Assembly: GCA_037833965.1 (NCBI GenBank)
Contig: AP031356.1
Span: 13,600,501 to 13,664,500 of the forward strand
Length of the DNA stretch: 64,000 bases
Reading direction: 5' to 3'
DNA from: Marchantia polymorpha subsp. ruderalis
Taxonomy: Eukaryota > Streptophyta > Marchantiopsida > Marchantiales > Marchantiaceae
In this document: positions 10,344 through 62,452 of the stretch, one piece after another
How positions within the stretch are numbered: the first letter of the stretch is position 1
How the letters are laid out: each line of letters starts with the position of its first letter
The notes under the pieces: generated by a model
The model's input: only the letters and a program-made list of their open reading frames with translations
Database searches by the model: none
What the model was told of the DNA's origin: nothing
Position numbers and translations under genes: made by a program

Positions 10344-10348
10344 TTTAT
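10344..10348. repeat. Target-site duplication TTTAT, left copy
   Basis: TTTAT directly precedes the TG end of the left LTR. The matching copy at 17724-17728 directly follows the CA end of the right LTR. Five-base duplications are usual for copia integrases. Confidence 0.9.
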
Positions 10349-10614
10349 TGTAAACGGTAAATCGAGAAAACATAAAACACAACATATCAAATCACAACTG
10401 AGACACTATATAACGTGGTTCACCCTCAGGGGCTACGTCCACAAAGGAATACGCTCGAGAGAGTTTACTGTTTGTTTGAAGTGATTCTCTTCCTATCACC
10501 CTCAGGGTATATATACCCAAGGTAGTCAACTACCTAAGCTATAAATAGCTACATATGCGGTTAACCAAGGTTAACTAACCTCAGTTAACTCCTTAACCAG
10601 AGTTAATATCAACA
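10349..10614 (-). repeat. 3' LTR of the copia element
   Basis: 266 bp, TG...CA. By eye it is base-for-base the same as 17458-17723. It contains the 14-bp palindrome GGGTATATATACCC, which holds the TATA-like core, and three GTTAAC palindromes near the U3 end. On the element's strand this is the downstream LTR, which supplies 3' processing. Confidence 0.95.
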
Positions 10615-10626
10615 ATCTCCCCCTTA
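10615..10626 (-). promoter_or_regulatory. Polypurine tract
   Basis: The minus strand reads AAGGGGGAGAT immediately before the TG of the 3' LTR. This is the expected plus-strand DNA primer position and composition. Confidence 0.88.
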
Positions 10627-10639
10627 ACTCGCGTTAAGG

Positions 10640-11064
10640 AGTCTCAGTAACCTCTCTAACCTATATTATTACTCAGCGGAAAGTTCTAGACAGAATGCTG
10701 ACTGAAGTTCCCTCTTTAAACGAGACTTAACTGGAACTAAGCCGTAGCCATGACAGGATAGAGTAATAATATACATAGGTAACTCAACAATATCTCACCT
10801 TAACTCATGTCAAGGAATTTTTTTAGTCGCCTCTCTAACCTATATTATTACTCTCATACCAAGATAGAGTAATAATATACAGAGGTAACTCAACAATATC
10901 TCACCTTAACTCATGTCAAGGAATTTTAGTCACCTCTCTAACCTATATTATTACTCTGCGGAAAGTTCTAGACGGAAACCTATCACAAGGTTCCCCTTTA
11001 AACGAGAGTTAACTAAAACCAAACCGTAGCCATAAGAGGATAGAGTAACAATATACAGAGGTAA
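10640..11064 (-). repeat. Tandem hairpin-forming repeats between pol and the 3' LTR
   Basis: The motif CCTCTCTAACCTATATTATT starts at about 10651, 10830 and 10933. Each copy is followed by a near-inverse version (AGAGTAATAATATAC and variants) at about 10760, 10865 and 11042. The pairs can fold into stems. The middle two blocks form a direct tandem repeat of about 102 bp. The region is non-coding and lies just after the pol stop. It may act as a structured 3' UTR; that role is inference. Confidence 0.75.
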
Positions 11065-14000
11065 CTAAGAACAATATCTCTCGTGCTCCCTATGCACAAC
11101 TTGCATAGTAGCACAATGTTGCCTGAAACTCTTCAAAGGAATAACTTTGGTCAACGCATCAGCTGGATTGAGTTTACCGTCAATCTTGACTAGCTCAATT
11201 GTTTTATCAGACACCGCTTGTCTAATAAAGTGATATCTGATGTCGATGTGCTTCACTCGGCTATCCATGACTTGATTCGCAGCCAAATGTAAAGCACTCT
11301 GGCTATCACAATGAAGATTGACCACGCCTTGTGTTAGTCCCATCTCCATGATAAGCTTATCTAACCAAATAGCTTCCTTTGCTGCTTCTGCTGCTGCCAC
11401 GTACTCAGCTTCTGTTGTTGACTGAGCTACGCACTTCTGCAAGGTAGATCTCCAACTAATGCTTCCGCCGCCAAGTGTAAACACATATCCGGTTGTAGAT
11501 CTCCTCTTGTCTAGATCTTGTACATAGTCAGCATCAACATAGCCAAACAGGGACTTGGCATTGTCTAATAAGCCATCAAACAATAAGCCATAATCCACAG
11601 TACTCTTCAGATATCTCAGAATCCATTTCACTGCTTCCCAGTGAACTTTTCCAGGATTTGACATGTACCTGCTCACCTTTCCCATTGCTAGAGCAATATC
11701 AGGTCTAGTGCACACCATTAAATACATGAGACTGCCTACTGCTTGTTCATAGGGAACACATGACATTTTTCCCTTTTCCACAGCATCTGTAGGACATTGG
11801 GCTGCGGAAAGTTTAAAATGTGCCGGCAGAGGAGTCCATACTCCTTTCGAATCGGCCATGTTGAACCTGTCAAGTATACGGCGAACATACTTGTCCTGAC
11901 TCAGCCATAGCTTCTTCTGTTCAAAATCTCTATAAATATCCATGCCTAGTATCCTTCTTGACTCCCCCATATCCTTCATCTTAAATGCAGACTTCAGCTG
12001 GCTTTTGCATTCATCGACATCGGATTGGTTCTTTGCCAAGATAAGCATGTCGTCAACGTAGAGTACTAAAATGATGAGATTGAAAGTCTCATCATTCACC
12101 TTCTTCATATAGACACAAGGATCATACACGCTTCGTAGAAAACCTTGTGCCTTCATAAACTCATCAAAACGTGTATTCCACTGCCTAGGAGCTTGCTTCA
12201 GTCCATACAATGATTTCAGTAATCTACAGACCCATCTTTCCTGGCCTTTGACCTCAAAGCCAATTGGTTGTCTCATGTAGATCTCCTCCTCTAAATATCC
12301 ATAAAGAAAAGCTGTAACCACATCCATCTGATCCATAACAAGACTGAATGTTGCGGCCAATGCACATACCAGACGAATTGTAGCGTATTTTGCTACAGGT
12401 GAAAAAACTTCGTTATAATCCACACCCTTTTCCTGTGTGAAACCTCTAGCCACCAGTCTGGCTTTGAAGATTCTTGCATCATCTCCTGCTGGATTGTCTT
12501 TCAGCTTGTACACCCACTTGGAGTCAATCACTGTCTGATTTTTAGGAAGCTCAACCAACTCCCAAGTCTTGTTGTCAAGCAGTGACTGCATCTCTCGCTC
12601 CATAGCAGCATTCCATTCAAGCTTGTTGACCGAAGCTTGAGCTTCTCTGTATGAAGAGGGTTCACCTTCTTCCAGGATCAACGCCATACCATCCTCCTCT
12701 TCAAAATCAAGATCACGATCCTTGAGAATAGATGAATTTGCCCATGCACCAAATCTCTCAGGCGCTCTACTAGATCGTTGTGATCTCCTAGTAGACGTTT
12801 CCATTTGATCTCTGTTGTCTGGTATTGTTGCAATAGGCTCACCAATAATAGCCTGCTCCTGTGGTTCTTGTTCCTCAAGAACTTGCTCCACATGTATCGG
12901 TGCTTCTTCATGTGACATATCATTAGTGATAGAATGATCATACTCCCCCACAACAATATCAGTGAGTAAAGATTTCCCCTTGTTAGCCTCCACATTCTCC
13001 CCCTCTTTCAATAAGCGAGGCTCATTGAAAGAAACATCTCTACTAACAATCACCTTGCAGGCAACAGGATCCCATAGCCTGTAACCTTTCACGCCACTAG
13101 CATATCCAAGAAAACGACATTTCTTGGATGTAGGTTCTAATTTGTTCCTGTGCTCCTTAGGTATAAAAGAATAAGCAGTACACCCAAAAATCCTCAAACG
13201 ACTATAATCTGCCATCCGTTTATGTCTCAATTCAAACGGTGTGGAGAAATTGATTGCACTAGAAGGAGAAAGGTTTACCAAATAAGTTGCGGTGTTGACA
13301 GCTTCGGCCCAAAATTCCCCTGGTAAACCGGATTCGCTTAGCATACTCCGCACTTTCTCCAACACTGTTCGATTGAGTCGCTCAGAAACAGCATTTTGTT
13401 GTGGAGTATAAATCGTCGTGAAATGGCGAGTAATCCCCTCCTCTATACAATACCTCTGAAATTCCTCACTAGTATACTCGCCACCATTATCTGATCGTAA
13501 ATATTTCACCTTGTGTCCAGTCTGAGTCTCAACTTGTATGCGCCAACTTTTGAAGGTTGAGAACACTTCAGACTTGTGGGTAAGAAAATATACCCACACA
13601 TACCTAGAGTAATCATCTATAAAGGAGACATAGTACAACTTTCCAGATAGTGAGGAAATAGGAGATGGTCCCCACACATCACTATGTACATACTCCAGTA
13701 TGTCCTTGGAATTATGAGTTCCAACGCCAAAAGTTTTCCTATGTTGCTTTCCCATGATGCAATGTTCACAAAATGACAGATCAACTTTACCCAAACCGGG
13801 TAATACATTTTTCTCATCAAGAAGAGACATGTATCGATCACTCATATGGCCTAATCTGGAATGCCATACATGAGACATCTCAACGCGAGATCTGGTAAAG
13901 TGAACTTCGCCACAAACAGTGATGCCCTCTAACAAGTACAGATTATTATGCTTGTATCGCCGAAGAATAATTTTCTTATCACATGATCTGACATCTAACA

Positions 14001-14310
14001 CGCCCTGCCGAGAACTCCATTCTAAGCCGTGTGAGTCCAACACTCCAAGAGAGATCAAGTTCTTTCTCATGTTAGGTATAAACCTAACCTGGTTCAACGT
14101 ACGGTTGACACCATCAAACATGCGGATCTTTACAGATCCAACACCCTCAATTCTACAGGGTTGGTCGTTTCCCATAAGAACTGAACCGTTTGATACGGAG
14201 AAAGTACAAAAGAACTCTCTAATGTAACAAATGTGATAAGAACAAGCACTGTCCAGAATCCATACATCTCCAACAACTTGCGGTGAGTTGTAGAGGGCAT
14301 ACCTCTGGCA
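11065..14310 (-). CDS. pol: Copia pol: protease, integrase, reverse transcriptase, RNase H
   Basis: This is the catalytic part of the copia polyprotein, in the same frame as gag and separated from it only by the TGA at 14313-14311. The first internal ATG is at 14175, but coding extends upstream: the protease active site WILDSACSYH has its Asp codon at 14253-14251. Counting from ATG 14175, the integrase zinc finger is H105-x4-H110...C136-x2-C139. The integrase triad is D166, D229 and E265, an exact D,D-35-E spacing. The integrase C-terminal region runs to about residue 390. Reverse transcriptase (RVT_2) covers about 530-790 with YVDDM at 706-710. RNase H covers the C-terminal 160 residues (YVDADY, STTEAEY, HCDSQSA). 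No frameshift occurs over 1036 codons. The product would use initiator tRNA priming and integrate nuclear cDNA. Confidence 0.96.
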   Translation of the reverse strand, partial: CQRYALYNSPQVVGDVWILDSACSYHICYIREFFCTFSVSNGSVLMGNDQPCRIEGVGSVKIRMFDGVNRTLNQVRFIPNMRKNLISLGVLDSHGLEWSSRQGVLDVRSCDKKIILRRYKHNNLYLLEGITVCGEVHFTRSRVEMSHVWHSRLGHMSDRYMSLLDEKNVLPGLGKVDLSFCEHCIMGKQHRKTFGVGTHNSKDILEYVHSDVWGPSPISSLSGKLYYVSFIDDYSRYVWVYFLTHKSEVFSTFKSWRIQVETQTGHKVKYLRSDNGGEYTSEEFQRYCIEEGITRHFTTIYTPQQNAVSERLNRTVLEKVRSMLSESGLPGEFWAEAVNTATYLVNLSPSSAINFSTPFELRHKRMADYSRLRIFGCTAYSFIPKEHRNKLEPTSKKCRFLGYASGVKGYRLWDPVACKVIVSRDVSFNEPRLLKEGENVEANKGKSLLTDIVVGEYDHSITNDMSHEEAPIHVEQVLEEQEPQEQAIIGEPIATIPDNRDQMETSTRRSQRSSRAPERFGAWANSSILKDRDLDFEEEDGMALILEEGEPSSYREAQASVNKLEWNAAMEREMQSLLDNKTWELVELPKNQTVIDSKWVYKLKDNPAGDDARIFKARLVARGFTQEKGVDYNEVFSPVAKYATIRLVCALAATFSLVMDQMDVVTAFLYGYLEEEIYMRQPIGFEVKGQERWVCRLLKSLYGLKQAPRQWNTRFDEFMKAQGFLRSVYDPCVYMKKVNDETFNLIILVLYVDDMLILAKNQSDVDECKSQLKSAFKMKDMGESRRILGMDIYRDFEQKKLWLSQDKYVRRILDRFNMADSKGVWTPLPAHFKLSAAQCPTDAVEKGKMSCVPYEQAVGSLMYLMVCTRPDIALAMGKVSRYMSNPGKVHWEAVKWILRYLKSTVDYGLLFDGLLDNAKSLFGYVDADYVQDLDKRRSTTGYVFTLGGGSISWRSTLQKCVAQSTTEAEYVAAAEAAKEAIWLDKLIMEMGLTQGVVNLHCDSQSALHLAANQVMDSRVKHIDIRYHFIRQAVSDKTIELVKIDGKLNPADALTKVIPLKSFRQHCATMQVVHREHERYCS

Positions 14311-15258
14311 TCATAGGCCATCCGTGTACAAATCGTTCGCCTCAGTATCAAGATGTTCAGCAACGTTTGCCACTGAAGGGGAGGTTGTACTGGCCATCCG
14401 GCAAAACTTTCTGATGTGGCCTTTCTTACCACAGCTCCAACAAACAACATTCTTCTTGTCAAATGGTTGAGCCAAAAATTGTACTTTCCTTCGGTCAGGA
14501 GATTTTGATCTCTGTCGCTTCAAGCCTGGACGTCGTGAATCGTGGATGTCTCTCGGTTGTGACTGACCTTTTGCCATAAAAAGTGCTGTCCCAGAAGTGG
14601 ATGGAACGGAAGGAGATAACAAATCCTGCTCAACTGCATCCGTCAGAAGTGCACTTACAACCTCGTTGTAAGTGACTGCTGTGTTCTGACGATGAAGAAG
14701 AATCTTCGATAGTGTCTGATAGGTAGATGGTAATGAGTGAAGAAGATGCATTGCCTTCTTTGTGTCAGTAAGCTCCTCCCCCATATTCCGAAGATCCACC
14801 AATAGATTTCCATAGGCGTGAATGTGGTCTTGTATGTGTGTGTCAGGCTTCATAGTGAACCGTAACAATCGCATGTAAGTGTTCATCACAATCGTTGGAT
14901 TCTTTTGATGGAACCGTTGTTGAAGCGCATCGAGCAACTTGGAAACTTCAGAGTACTCCTCAACCTGCTTGAGTATAGTAGGGTCTAGATATGCCAACAC
15001 AGTGCAAACTGCCTGGTCCTGAGCGGTAGCCCATTCAATGTCATTTATGCTAGAAGGTTTTTCTCCCAAGCAGATAGTGAGACCCATGGATCGTAGTTTC
15101 ACTTTTACTTGCTTTTCCCAAAGCAAATAATCACCGTGGCCATCGAAAGGTATGATGTTATATCCAAAATTGCCACCAATTTGTCGACCTATAGACTCTG
15201 CACGTCGAAAATGAGAGACAATAGCAGCTTCCGAGTCAATTTCCTCCTTTTGATTCAT
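14311..15258 (-). CDS. gag: Copia gag (nucleocapsid)
   Basis: A 315-residue Gag that forms the virus-like particle and packages element RNA. It starts at ATG 15258. The N-terminal half matches the copia UBN2/DUF4219-type capsid layout (DGHGDYLLWEKQVKVKL, then LLRFTMKPDT and MHLLHSLPSTY). Residues 245-260 are basic. The zinc knuckle CWSCGKKGHIRKFC at 273-286 is CX2CX4HX4C. The frame ends at TGA 14313-14311, and the same frame then continues into pol, so gag and pol are one reading frame of 1397 sense and stop codons broken once. Either the stop is read through at low frequency or it is a recent point mutation, plausibly CGA to TGA by deamination at a methylated CpG. Confidence 0.93.
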   Translation of the reverse strand: MNQKEEIDSEAAIVSHFRRAESIGRQIGGNFGYNIIPFDGHGDYLLWEKQVKVKLRSMGLTICLGEKPSSINDIEWATAQDQAVCTVLAYLDPTILKQVEEYSEVSKLLDALQQRFHQKNPTIVMNTYMRLLRFTMKPDTHIQDHIHAYGNLLVDLRNMGEELTDTKKAMHLLHSLPSTYQTLSKILLHRQNTAVTYNEVVSALLTDAVEQDLLSPSVPSTSGTALFMAKGQSQPRDIHDSRRPGLKRQRSKSPDRRKVQFLAQPFDKKNVVCWSCGKKGHIRKFCRMASTTSPSVANVAEHLDTEANDLYTDGL

Positions 15259-15599
15259 CGTTCAGGTCCTGAAAAGTGCCCAAATGCTCTAGTTGTGTCG
15301 AGAGCTTTCCACCGATACCCAATTTGACTAGATTCTGATGAAAAATATTTCTGAGAAATATTTATGACGGAATATTCCTGCACTGTAGGTCCGACCGTCA
15401 CCGTTGATATCACCGTCACCGTTACCGTCGTTCGACCGTTGCCCCTCTGACCGCGACTGTAACCACGTTCAGATCAACTACATCAGCTGTAACCACAGTT
15501 GGTCTAACCACGTCAGAACTCGACCAAGTTCACTTCCAACCACGTTGCAGTGCCCTAAACCGCACGGCTAACTACCCTAAATATTTCGTAGTCGGCAAA

Positions 15600-16080
15600 A
15601 TGGGGGGGTGCCACCCTGCGGTCGAACTGTGGCCTAACTTGCGCGGGGGATGGCCCTCCGTGGCCTCCCTCCTTAACCTTGTGATTTGTCCTTCCTGCCC
15701 TAACCGCGCGGGGGGAGCTCCTTCCTCCCTCCCTAACCGCGCGCGGGAGTGTGGCCCTCCGTGGCTCTTCCTCCCTCCCTAACCGCGCGCGGGGGTGGAA
15801 GGAGTAGGCGCTGCCTGCCCTAAATGCGCGCGGGGGGGGGGGGGGGTGGGAACTCCCTCCTGCCGGAAATACTCCGCTCCTCTCCTGCGGGGAAGGGGGG
15901 GATTACTCCCTCCGACCCTACTCCCCTCCTCTCCTGCGGGCTCCGCTCCTCACCTGTCGCTACCTCCTGCCTTCACGCGGGAGGGGTAGCTGCGGAAATA
16001 CTCCGCTCTTGTTACTCCAACTCGTACCCTAACTGCCTGCTGCCACCTCCAGGTACAAAAGTACTCCCTCCTCACATTCA
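15600..16080. repeat. GC-rich low-complexity block with repeated CCCTCCCTAACCGCGCG motif
   Basis: Variants of CCCTCCCTAACCGCGCGCGGG recur at about 15700-15840, followed by a run of about 15 G near 15832-15846 and further CTCCGCTCCTCTCCTGCGGG repeats to about 15980. Nothing else in the window is this GC-rich. It lies upstream of the captured plus-strand gene fragment and could be its former promoter/5' UTR or an independent repeat expansion. Open frames through it are by-products of composition. Confidence 0.7.
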
Positions 16081-16196
16081 ATTGTACCGTGGCATCGAGA
16101 CTTGATCACACCATGTCGAATCGAAGTGAAAGGCGATCGCAGCGTGACGTTACAATTCGCCTTTTGAGAAACGACAGTGTATCATAAGCTTGCAAA

Positions 16197-16933
16197 GTGG
16201 GACTGTGGCCGATAGTCGTCCTTCTGTTTACTCCTTCAGCTGCCTCGAAACGTTCTCTCTGCGTTCGTGCGGTACACGCACGAGCGGGCAGAATGTTAAC
16301 CCACCTCAATGTGTGGCGGGGTGTTACGAAGGCAAATATCTTCTGCTCACCACTTTCGGAACTTTGCAGCGTAGAGTCTAGTCGGAGCAGTTTTCAACCC
16401 CCGGGGAGTGATGAACGTGATGGCACCTCAAGAGCGAGAGAGCCGCGGGTGCTTCGGGCAGCTGTCTCCGGTAATACGGAAATTCTGAGAGCCTTCAGCC
16501 CAGAGAGGTTGTGAATGCTCTGCGGGAGGACTATGCGCGTTTGTACTTTCTGACAGGAGAGTTTCTGGATTCTCTCTACACGGAGGACTGCTTGTTTGCT
16601 GATCCTACTATTCAGTTCTCAGGACGAGATTTGTATAGACGTAATTTAAAATTGCTGGTCCCTTTCTATGAGGATCCTTCACTCACCCTTGAAAGTATCC
16701 AGGAGGACGAAGATGGTGACTCAAAGTTCGTCGAAACTTCTTGGAAATTGAGAGTTTATATAAAACTACCTTGGAAACCCTTCATTGCTGTGGATGGTCG
16801 CACCAAGTACAGCTTAAATGCCGAAAATAAAATCGTGGAGCACGTAGAGAGCTGGAATGTGACAGCGATAGAAGCCTTGGGGCAGATTTTTAAGCCCTCC
16901 GAGAGGGCACTTTGGAAGACCTCCACAAGTTAA
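16197..16933 (+). pseudogene. Captured host gene fragment: NTF2-like (DUF2358-type) protein, frameshifted
   Basis: The frame 16511-16933 (140 codons) encodes a compact domain with ALREDYARLYFLTGEF, then YTEDCLFADPTIQFSGRDLY, LRVYIKLPWKPFIAVDG and VESWNVTAIEALGQIF. I recognise this as the plant NTF2-like/DUF2358 family (Arabidopsis At2g46100 type, probably plastid), a cone-shaped fold of unknown reaction. The frame has no ATG of its own at a sensible position. The upstream frame (ending 16514; candidate ATG 16293) reads into EILRAFSPER and appears to continue the protein, so one base seems lost near 16508. The coding strand is opposite to gag-pol. A host sequence between an intact LTR pair, antisense to the element, indicates transduplication. 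The alternative, an older insertion of host DNA into the leader, has the same outcome. Confidence 0.75.
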
Positions 16934-17102
16934 CTTTACTAGAAGTCGCGCTGACGGTAGTCGAGCCTATTCCCTTACTTCGAGGTGAAAAACCTGACCA
17001 CCATCACCATGACCTTGCAAAAATCCCCAGCGGCAGAAACACTCGTTTCCAGGCAACAATCCCTTGGATGATTGCCCGATGCAGAGTGAACGACGAACTA
17101 CT

Positions 17103-17143
17103 AGTAGAGCAAGTGCCGGCTACCAAGTAGAGCAAGTGCCGGC
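17103..17143. repeat. Short tandem duplication in the copia leader
   Basis: AGTAGAGCAAGTGCCGGC occurs at 17103-17120 and again at 17126-17143 (period 23 bp). It lies between the captured gene fragment and the primer binding site and could mark a junction made during reverse transcription. Confidence 0.7.
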
Positions 17144-17443
17144 CTTCTGCTACGATCCACGACACAAGAAGAACGAATTCCACCACCAGTCGCCCTCCGA
17201 GAGCCAAGATCTCACACCGCCCGAACTCCGACGCCTCAACTTAGCTCTCGACAATCTCTCCAAATCTCAAAACTTCAGTAGCTTGACAGAACTTCTACAA
17301 CCTGCAAACACTTTCACACTCACTTCAAAAAATTATCAACAGAATCTGTCACTGAGTCCGTCAGAAAACCTTCTGTTAGAAAAACTGTCACCGTACGAAA
17401 CCAACCCGACAAAACCCTCCGACACTAAGTCCGAACCGAACTC

Positions 17444-17455
17444 GCTCTGATACCA
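17444..17455 (-). promoter_or_regulatory. Primer binding site for initiator Met tRNA
   Basis: The minus strand reads TGGTATCAGAGC two bases inside the 5' LTR. This is the classical plant copia primer binding site, complementary to initiator methionine tRNA. It fixes the element's orientation. Confidence 0.93.
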
Positions 17456-17457
17456 AA

Positions 17458-17723
17458 TGTAAACGGTAAATCGAGAAAACATAAAACACAACATATCAAA
17501 TCACAACTGAGACACTATATAACGTGGTTCACCCTCAGGGGCTACGTCCACAAAGGAATACGCTCGAGAGAGTTTACTGTTTGTTTGAAGTGATTCTCTT
17601 CCTATCACCCTCAGGGTATATATACCCAAGGTAGTCAACTACCTAAGCTATAAATAGCTACATATGCGGTTAACCAAGGTTAACTAACCTCAGTTAACTC
17701 CTTAACCAGAGTTAATATCAACA
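17458..17723 (-). promoter_or_regulatory. 5' LTR and promoter of the copia element
   Basis: 266-bp LTR serving as the element's promoter on the minus strand. A TATA-like core lies within GGGTATATATACCC at 17614-17627. Upstream of it in U3 are three GTTAAC palindromes at 17669, 17679 and 17693, plus related TTAACC/GTTAA half sites, a plausible activator-binding cluster. No factor can be named from sequence alone. Confidence 0.8.
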
Positions 17724-17728
17724 TTTAT
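17724..17728. repeat. Target-site duplication TTTAT, right copy
   Basis: This is the second copy of the 5-bp target duplication. Its perfect match to 10344-10348 shows that the two LTRs belong to one insertion and have not recombined with another copy. Confidence 0.9.
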
Positions 17729-61641: not shown

Positions 61642-62379
61642 CAATTTTTTTTTCCTATGTTTTAAAATATATGAAGTATTTGGTTTTTGAAGGTGCCGCA
61701 ATACGAATTTATTTTTGGAAATCCGTACATTTGGTTAATTCATATTTTCTGAGATAGAAATGAATGCAAGACAAAATCTACAGAAATAATGTTGTTATTT
61801 CTGTATGACAATACTTCTCGTACATAAAGCTGTCAGTTGTGTTTTGTGGGTATGTTGGGTGATTTCTTGGATGTTGGCTAGTAATGACATATTTTTTGAC
61901 AAATTTTGTGATATCTTTCAGAAATAAGTAATTATTGAAATCTTCAGATTAAACTATCACCTTTTCATTCTATAATCTAATTACTAATCAATTGAACATA
62001 TTTAGGCTCAAATTAAAACTAATCACACTTTAGATATGGATAAATATGTTTTACCTTATATGTACAACTATGGATCTTGCAGACGAGACCAATTTCTTGA
62101 TATAAATTTAAAATGAATAAGGTTCATACTTCGTTGATATATTAGAACCTATTATTCTTTAGAACTAATAATAATATCACCTTTTTAAAAGCATCATTCC
62201 ACAATTTTCTTCTGGTTCAAAATCTTAACAACATTATTTCTGTAGATTTTGTCTTGCATTCATTTCTACCTCAGAAAATATGAATTAACCAAATGTACGG
62301 ATTTCCAAAAATAAATTCGTATTGCGGCACCTTCAAAAACCAAATACTTCATATTTTTCAAAAGATGGGAAAAATAATT
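61642..62379. mobile_element. Non-autonomous inverted-repeat element with ~155-bp arms
   Basis: The left arm (about 61642-61797) and right arm (about 62226-62379) are reverse complements. The inner 127 bp (61671-61797 against 62226-62352) differ at only one position by eye (GAGATAG against GAGGTAG). The outer 30 bp are similar but diverged. About 430 bp of AT-rich, non-coding sequence separates the arms. The structure fits a foldback/MITE-type DNA element. Target duplication and exact ends could not be fixed. Confidence 0.75.
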
Positions 62380-62452
62380 TTTGTTTTTTGCCTATAACCT
62401 TCCTTTTTGTAATTTTTTGCCTGGAACCCAATAAATAAGCAATTAAAAATAC

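Follow-up and report, generated by a model that had tools for sequence, protein, structure and literature searches.

A spliced host DUF2358 sequence in antisense orientation within the leader of a Ty1/copia element of Marchantia polymorpha

The stretch of DNA analysed here (the window, 64,000 nucleotides) contains a Ty1/copia element that carries, between its primer binding site (PBS) and gag, a spliced copy of a host gene of the DUF2358 type, antisense to gag-pol. The sequence confirms the feature and makes plain what it is: very probably, the message of this gene was captured as RNA in antisense orientation and the resulting chimaera then spread. LTR elements are known to capture genes. It is unusual to find the cargo antisense in the leader and to see the donor, the empty site and the spread as well. 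Every stage of the capture can be followed in one genome (241 Mb in nine contigs, given below as C1, C2 and so on, with the window on C7), namely an intron-bearing donor, a pre-capture sister, a common junction and four later insertions. An earlier sequence-only reading of the window had proposed host-gene capture followed by spread, an interpretation supported by the intron-bearing donor and by three further elements with the cargo.

The element and its leader

The element (10349..17723, minus strand, as are all its parts below) is bounded by two LTRs that agree at 266 of 266 positions, the 3' LTR at 10349..10614 and the 5' LTR at 17458..17723, and is flanked by target duplications of TTTAT at 10344-10348 and 17724-17728. 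A PBS, TGGTATCAGAGC, can be read beside the 5' LTR at 17444..17455, and we take it to be the complement of the end of the initiator-Met tRNA. On the other side, AAGGGGGAGAT (element sense, 10615..10625) adjoins the 3' LTR and presumably acts as the polypurine tract. The identical LTRs and intact PBS claimed by the sequence-only reading are therefore both present. The gag ORF (14311..15258, 315 aa) matches Retrotran_gag_2, and in the pol ORF (11065..14175, 1036 aa) integrase (rve, residues 163-258) precedes reverse transcriptase (RVT_2, residues 535-783), which is the copia order. Paired LTRs, short target duplications, an adjoining PBS and polypurine tract, and an integrase 5' of RVT_2 place the element in Ty1/copia. 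At the angiosperm rate of 7e-9 changes per site and year, the window copy would be less than about 0.8 million years old. The gag and pol ORFs share a frame and are separated by a single in-frame stop (14311-14313), right before the protease region. A 163-base direct repeat (10622-10784 versus 10904-11066, 83% identity) lies between pol and the 3' LTR, and elsewhere in the window there is an inverted repeat with 155-base arms (61643-61797 and 62226-62380, 95% complementary, spacing 428 bases). A tRNA scan across the window returned none.

Most of the leader is the element's own. Its gag-proximal part (15259..16069) and its PBS-proximal part (17004..17457) both match a sister element at C3:20387118-20394050, which has the same LTR type, a target duplication of TAGGC, leader parts at 97% identity and no cargo. 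Identity to this sister is 97% over 15259-15799 and 17004-17456 and 99-100% over 15863-16008 and 16025-16071, and alignment is poor at 15800-15862 and 16009-16024, inside a G+C-rich repetitive stretch. Because a cargo-free element matches at 97-100%, the flanking leader is element sequence, which rules out the roughly 2 kb of foreign DNA first proposed; the foreign part is 918 bp (16070-16987). At the corresponding site of the C3 leader, ACTCCCTCC and TCACCATGACC enclose 40 nt (GGATCAG...ATGTCT), an arrangement also kept by a diverged sequence on C6. In the cargo copies, the cargo and a 16-nt junction stretch, AAAAACCTGACCACCA (16988..17003, no strand assigned), replace about 40 nt of this C3-type leader, and the C3 element is best read as showing the pre-capture site. 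As a whole, the 16-nt stretch aligns to neither the donor nor the C3 element; it is possibly what is left of a poly(A) tail. At the 5' (left) junction of the cargo, 2 nt are common to element and donor, and the 3' junction has five A only. The cargo has no target duplication, since the longest string common to both flanks is 5 nt and lies away from the junctions.

The cargo, its donor and its copies

The cargo (16070..16987, plus strand) derives from a single intron-bearing host locus at C4:5932429-5934934, to which it aligns in seven pieces, six of them at 96-100% identity. The first piece reaches only 90% because the window lacks 45 nt (at 16362/16363, compared with the donor and with the C7b copy described below); the remainder has 4 mismatches. 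Part of donor exon 1, comprising 5' untranslated and N-terminal sequence, occupies 16070..16507, and exons 2-7 (16508..16987) follow at 16508-16556, 16557-16622, 16623-16705, 16706-16752, 16753-16831 and 16832-16987. The seven pieces abut, and the six GT-AG introns of the donor (331, 184, 247, 392, 141 and 248 nt) have been removed exactly, ruling out a DNA copy; at the level of sequence, this identifies the cargo as RNA-derived and antisense to gag-pol. The frame at 16511..16933, open but without an ATG, matches DUF2358 (Pfam PF10184, E 2.9e-22) with 79.5 bits against a cut-off of 24.3, so the match is not due to chance. The NTF2-like/DUF2358 domain was thus correctly placed on the strand opposite gag-pol (plus versus minus); the extent given for it, 16197-16933, does fall inside the cargo, but the true cargo is longer at both ends.

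The donor has an open frame of 247 aa when its first intron ends at GTCGCAG, with DUF2358 at residues 106-218 (E 1e-21). In the captured RNA the 3' splice site of intron 1, at which exon 2 of the cargo starts, lies 58 nt downstream of this in-frame acceptor. This shifts the frame, and the cargo therefore could not have encoded the full donor protein even at uptake. The idea that the donor itself is disrupted, based on the cargo-type joint breaking the frame, was dropped, as the acceptor 58 nt upstream opens the 247-aa frame. Searching the genome with 16197-16933 gave matches at five places, all five candidates being scored: the donor, the window copy and three more. Beyond the cargo copies, DUF2358 matches were listed on C8 (two) and C3 (one), together with two weaker ones, at 40 and 45% identity, on C2 and C3; no close copy of the cargo is among them. 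The genome thus holds a second, intron-bearing copy of the NTF2-like gene, with the introns and intact frame that had been suggested as a check on capture.

Other elements with the same cargo were likewise to be expected, and three were found, at C7:17147631-17154768 (C7b, target duplication GAAAT), C4:2820774-2828022 (TAATT) and C9:17566627-17571404 (AGTAC). Together with the window copy (TTTAT), all four share the 3' junction of the cargo, each within its own 5-bp duplication. The common junction and the separate target duplications argue for one capture and then spread, with the chimaera mobilised as a unit, evidently at least four times. The window, C7b and C4 copies share the start of the cargo, donor base CCTCACATTC, and differ slightly in the element bases before it. 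At six sites (348, 450, 490, 752, 792 and 931), all three copies covering them differ from the donor; the C9 copy covers and shares the last three of these differences (752, 792, 931), and site 562 groups C7b, C4 and C9. A tree of a 1893-bp pol segment joins the same three elements with a support of 99 and places C3 next outside; by itself this segment unites all four cargo elements with a support of just 67, a point against the reading given here. The LTR pairs have no differences in the window and C7b elements, one each in C4 and C9, and three in the cargo-free C3 element.

The copies have also decayed in different ways. The C4 cargo has lost 92 nt (16261-16352); the C9 copy lacks the whole stretch from 13968 to 16566; and in C7b nothing matches 14297-15688, the part that holds gag. 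In place of the gag region, C7b (C7:17151580-17152371) has an inverted copy, 542 bp long (99.8%), of the element's own pol, followed by a 141-bp piece resembling a dispersed sequence at 91% and by a 68-bp piece resembling a repeat near contig ends at 98.5%. The inverted piece starts at self-complementary GGTTCTTG..CAAGAACC, which makes foldback priming a simpler origin than a second switch onto RNA, and suggests that it arose in this way. At C1:51000-69500 a repeat recurs at a spacing of 17,333 bases; part of it reads N, and several contigs have matches to it near their ends. An Rfam search of two stretches of this chromosome-end repeat, both partly N, gave one 5S rRNA and nothing else.

Routes into the leader

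Given its antisense orientation, the cargo may have arisen by one of three routes, namely copying of host RNA as the second strand was made, insertion by a LINE, or repair with cDNA. The route we favour, and to which we give about an even chance, is a switch of the reverse transcriptase onto host mRNA in plus-strand synthesis. In the textbook cycle, extension of the plus strand runs from the PBS into the leader. While growing away from the PBS, the plus strand would have left its template during reverse transcription, taken the host mRNA as template from the 3' part to the 5' part, and rejoined the leader about 40 nt farther on. Template use of this kind in plus-strand synthesis yields an antisense cargo, and a switch in minus-strand synthesis a sense one. 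Three points count against this route. Transduced genes are not usually antisense, according to a review (PMC7264820); the five A at the 3' junction might be left over from a poly(A) tail, as LINE insertion would have it; and the element family has a second insert, described below, with a LINE-like or repeat-like duplication. These last points fit target-primed reverse transcription of the host mRNA by a LINE into the leader of a resident copia element, which would later have transposed whole. The intronless cargo resembles LINE-made processed pseudogenes in being spliced, and the second leader insert of the family sits in an A-run, with the same sequence on both sides in one element. However, the cargo differs from such pseudogenes in having no target duplication (the shared string of at most 5 nt lies off the junctions) and no clear poly(A) beyond the five A, which might be a remnant of one; about 40 nt of leader were lost; and no LINE was found, the 906-aa ORF of a candidate repeat not looking like LINE pol. 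Under this reading the orientation of the cargo would be a coin toss. We consider LINE insertion rather unlikely. In the third route, free host cDNA would have been used to close a double-strand break in a resident element's leader, and the element would have transposed later. Short target loss, the 2-nt overlap and the 16 nt of odd junction sequence would all fit end joining, and the related C7b does have, at its former gag, a mosaic of one inverted pol piece with two pieces of foreign repeats. As such a repair requires free cDNA of the donor mRNA in the nucleus plus a break in the leader, and nothing specific speaks for it, it seems improbable. Further leader inserts could separate the three routes.

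Whichever way the cargo entered, its frame might be one that serves the element and is kept by selection on the protein. All cargo copies (4/4) have it open; however, it has no ATG, is preceded in the window copy by a stop just upstream, is frameshifted relative to the N-terminus of the donor and is absent from 12 of the 15 leaders compared, and the C9 copy has lost the 5' half. Nine codons vary among the donor and the copies, eight by replacement and one silently, where a replacement fraction of 0.72-0.78 is expected without selection. These numbers are small, but the changes fit drift and disfavour a selected gene, which we regard as very hard to credit; the cargo probably makes no donor protein.

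The cargo is not a normal part of the family. Among 15 leaders compared, all from this one genome (the C9 cargo copy lies outside the set, and a gag search listed 40 of 251 candidate places), the DUF2358 cargo occurs in 3 and a second insert in 2. With 12 of the 15 leaders lacking the domain, the possibility that it belongs to the element family as such is ruled out for this genome. The first ~290 bases beside gag are common to most of these leaders, including that of the window element, and the PBS-proximal part varies by sub-lineage, as if it had been replaced several times. The second insert (~0.9 and 1.1 kb) is found in the leaders of C5:6701899-6709197 (where it occupies C5:6707734-6708625) and C9:2692037-2699639. 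It matches C4:20370951-20372078 at 97% in one piece; no other long match is listed apart from the two elements and this place, which has no match to the window element and contains a 114-aa ORF with no Pfam match. As the match contains no intron, an RNA origin is not established for this insert. A relative at C4:13307995-13320122 is without it and has an A-run of ~12 at the site; in the C9:2692037 element AAAAAGAAA stands on both sides of the insert, and the C5 element has lost the left border. If the A-run marks the 3' end of an RNA, the second insert would be antisense too. The leader of the same C4:13307995-13320122 element also contains a 5.3-kb repeat (C4:13308370-13313680) with many further copies, and a 906-aa ORF on the other strand relative to the element's neighbours; its assignment as a LINE was dropped, this being the ORF judged above. 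A single donor was also rejected for the leader stretches of the C2:24222223 and C4:27568397 elements, whose matches are many-placed or short.

Possible consequences and known systems

RNA driven from the LTR would be complementary to the donor mRNA over up to 918 nt, and might form duplexes with it or enter small-RNA pathways. Measured against the donor model spliced as in the cargo, identical 21-mers number 659/898 in the window copy, 790/943 in C7b, 591/806 in C4 and 318/410 in C9, an identity that would permit small RNAs to act on the donor. Silencing of the donor by the cargo is possible, and the element allows a direct test of any such effect in small-RNA libraries. In a moth, silencing RNAs from LTR-linked antisense partial copies are described in PMC9674220, and small RNAs from captured genes in maize in a review (PMC13317346). 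A broader idea is that antisense copies of host RNA enter the leader of this copia family again and again, with transcripts and small RNAs that lower donor expression or shield the element. We consider this doubtful, a long shot on present data. If true, it would mean a DUF2358 mRNA in one sub-lineage and a 1.1-kb host segment in another, element silencing tied to a host gene and so shielding the element, and an immediate source for the antisense ORFs that plant LTR elements carry.

Among the entries listed from one open-access library, no title or abstract start was found that describes antisense host mRNA in a copia leader, or host-gene capture by LTR elements in liverworts; PMC9985172 has passages on liverwort genomes, and a word search of PMC3726574 gave no mention of orientation, antisense, introns or template.

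According to the 2020 review PMC7264820, transduced sequences are usually in the sense of gag-pol. Bs1 of maize, with parts of three genes joined in one ORF (PMC13317346 and PMC7264820), and other LTR elements with transduced genes resemble the window element in holding host gene sequence that was copied onward, and here too host sequence lies inside the element with an intron-bearing donor elsewhere. The usual, though not required, sense orientation is not found, with the cargo on the plus and gag-pol on the minus strand; and in contrast to Bs1, the window element has a single mRNA, antisense, in the leader and not coding for the donor protein. Antisense sequence within a plant LTR element is also a feature of Grande, RIRE2 and Retand. 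According to PMC7264820, the region between pol and the 3' LTR holds most antisense ORFs of plant LTR elements, and most of these ORFs are of unknown origin; those of the three named families lie there, in most family copies, with no known host source. The window cargo, by contrast, lies in the leader, in few copies and with its donor in the genome; instead of a conserved protein in most copies, we find it in 3/15 leaders, with 8 replacement changes to 1 silent. The window element shows one actual way for host sequence to enter a plant LTR element in antisense. Pxyfem of Plutella xylostella is, like the window cargo, a partial, spliced host cDNA joined to LTR-element sequence, to which it stands in reverse complement in the transcripts; PMC9674220 ascribes this to template switching with short shared sequence at the switch. 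For Pxyfem, small RNAs against the donor have been seen and what surrounds it are LTR-element remnants, whereas the present case is known from DNA alone and its elements are nearly whole.
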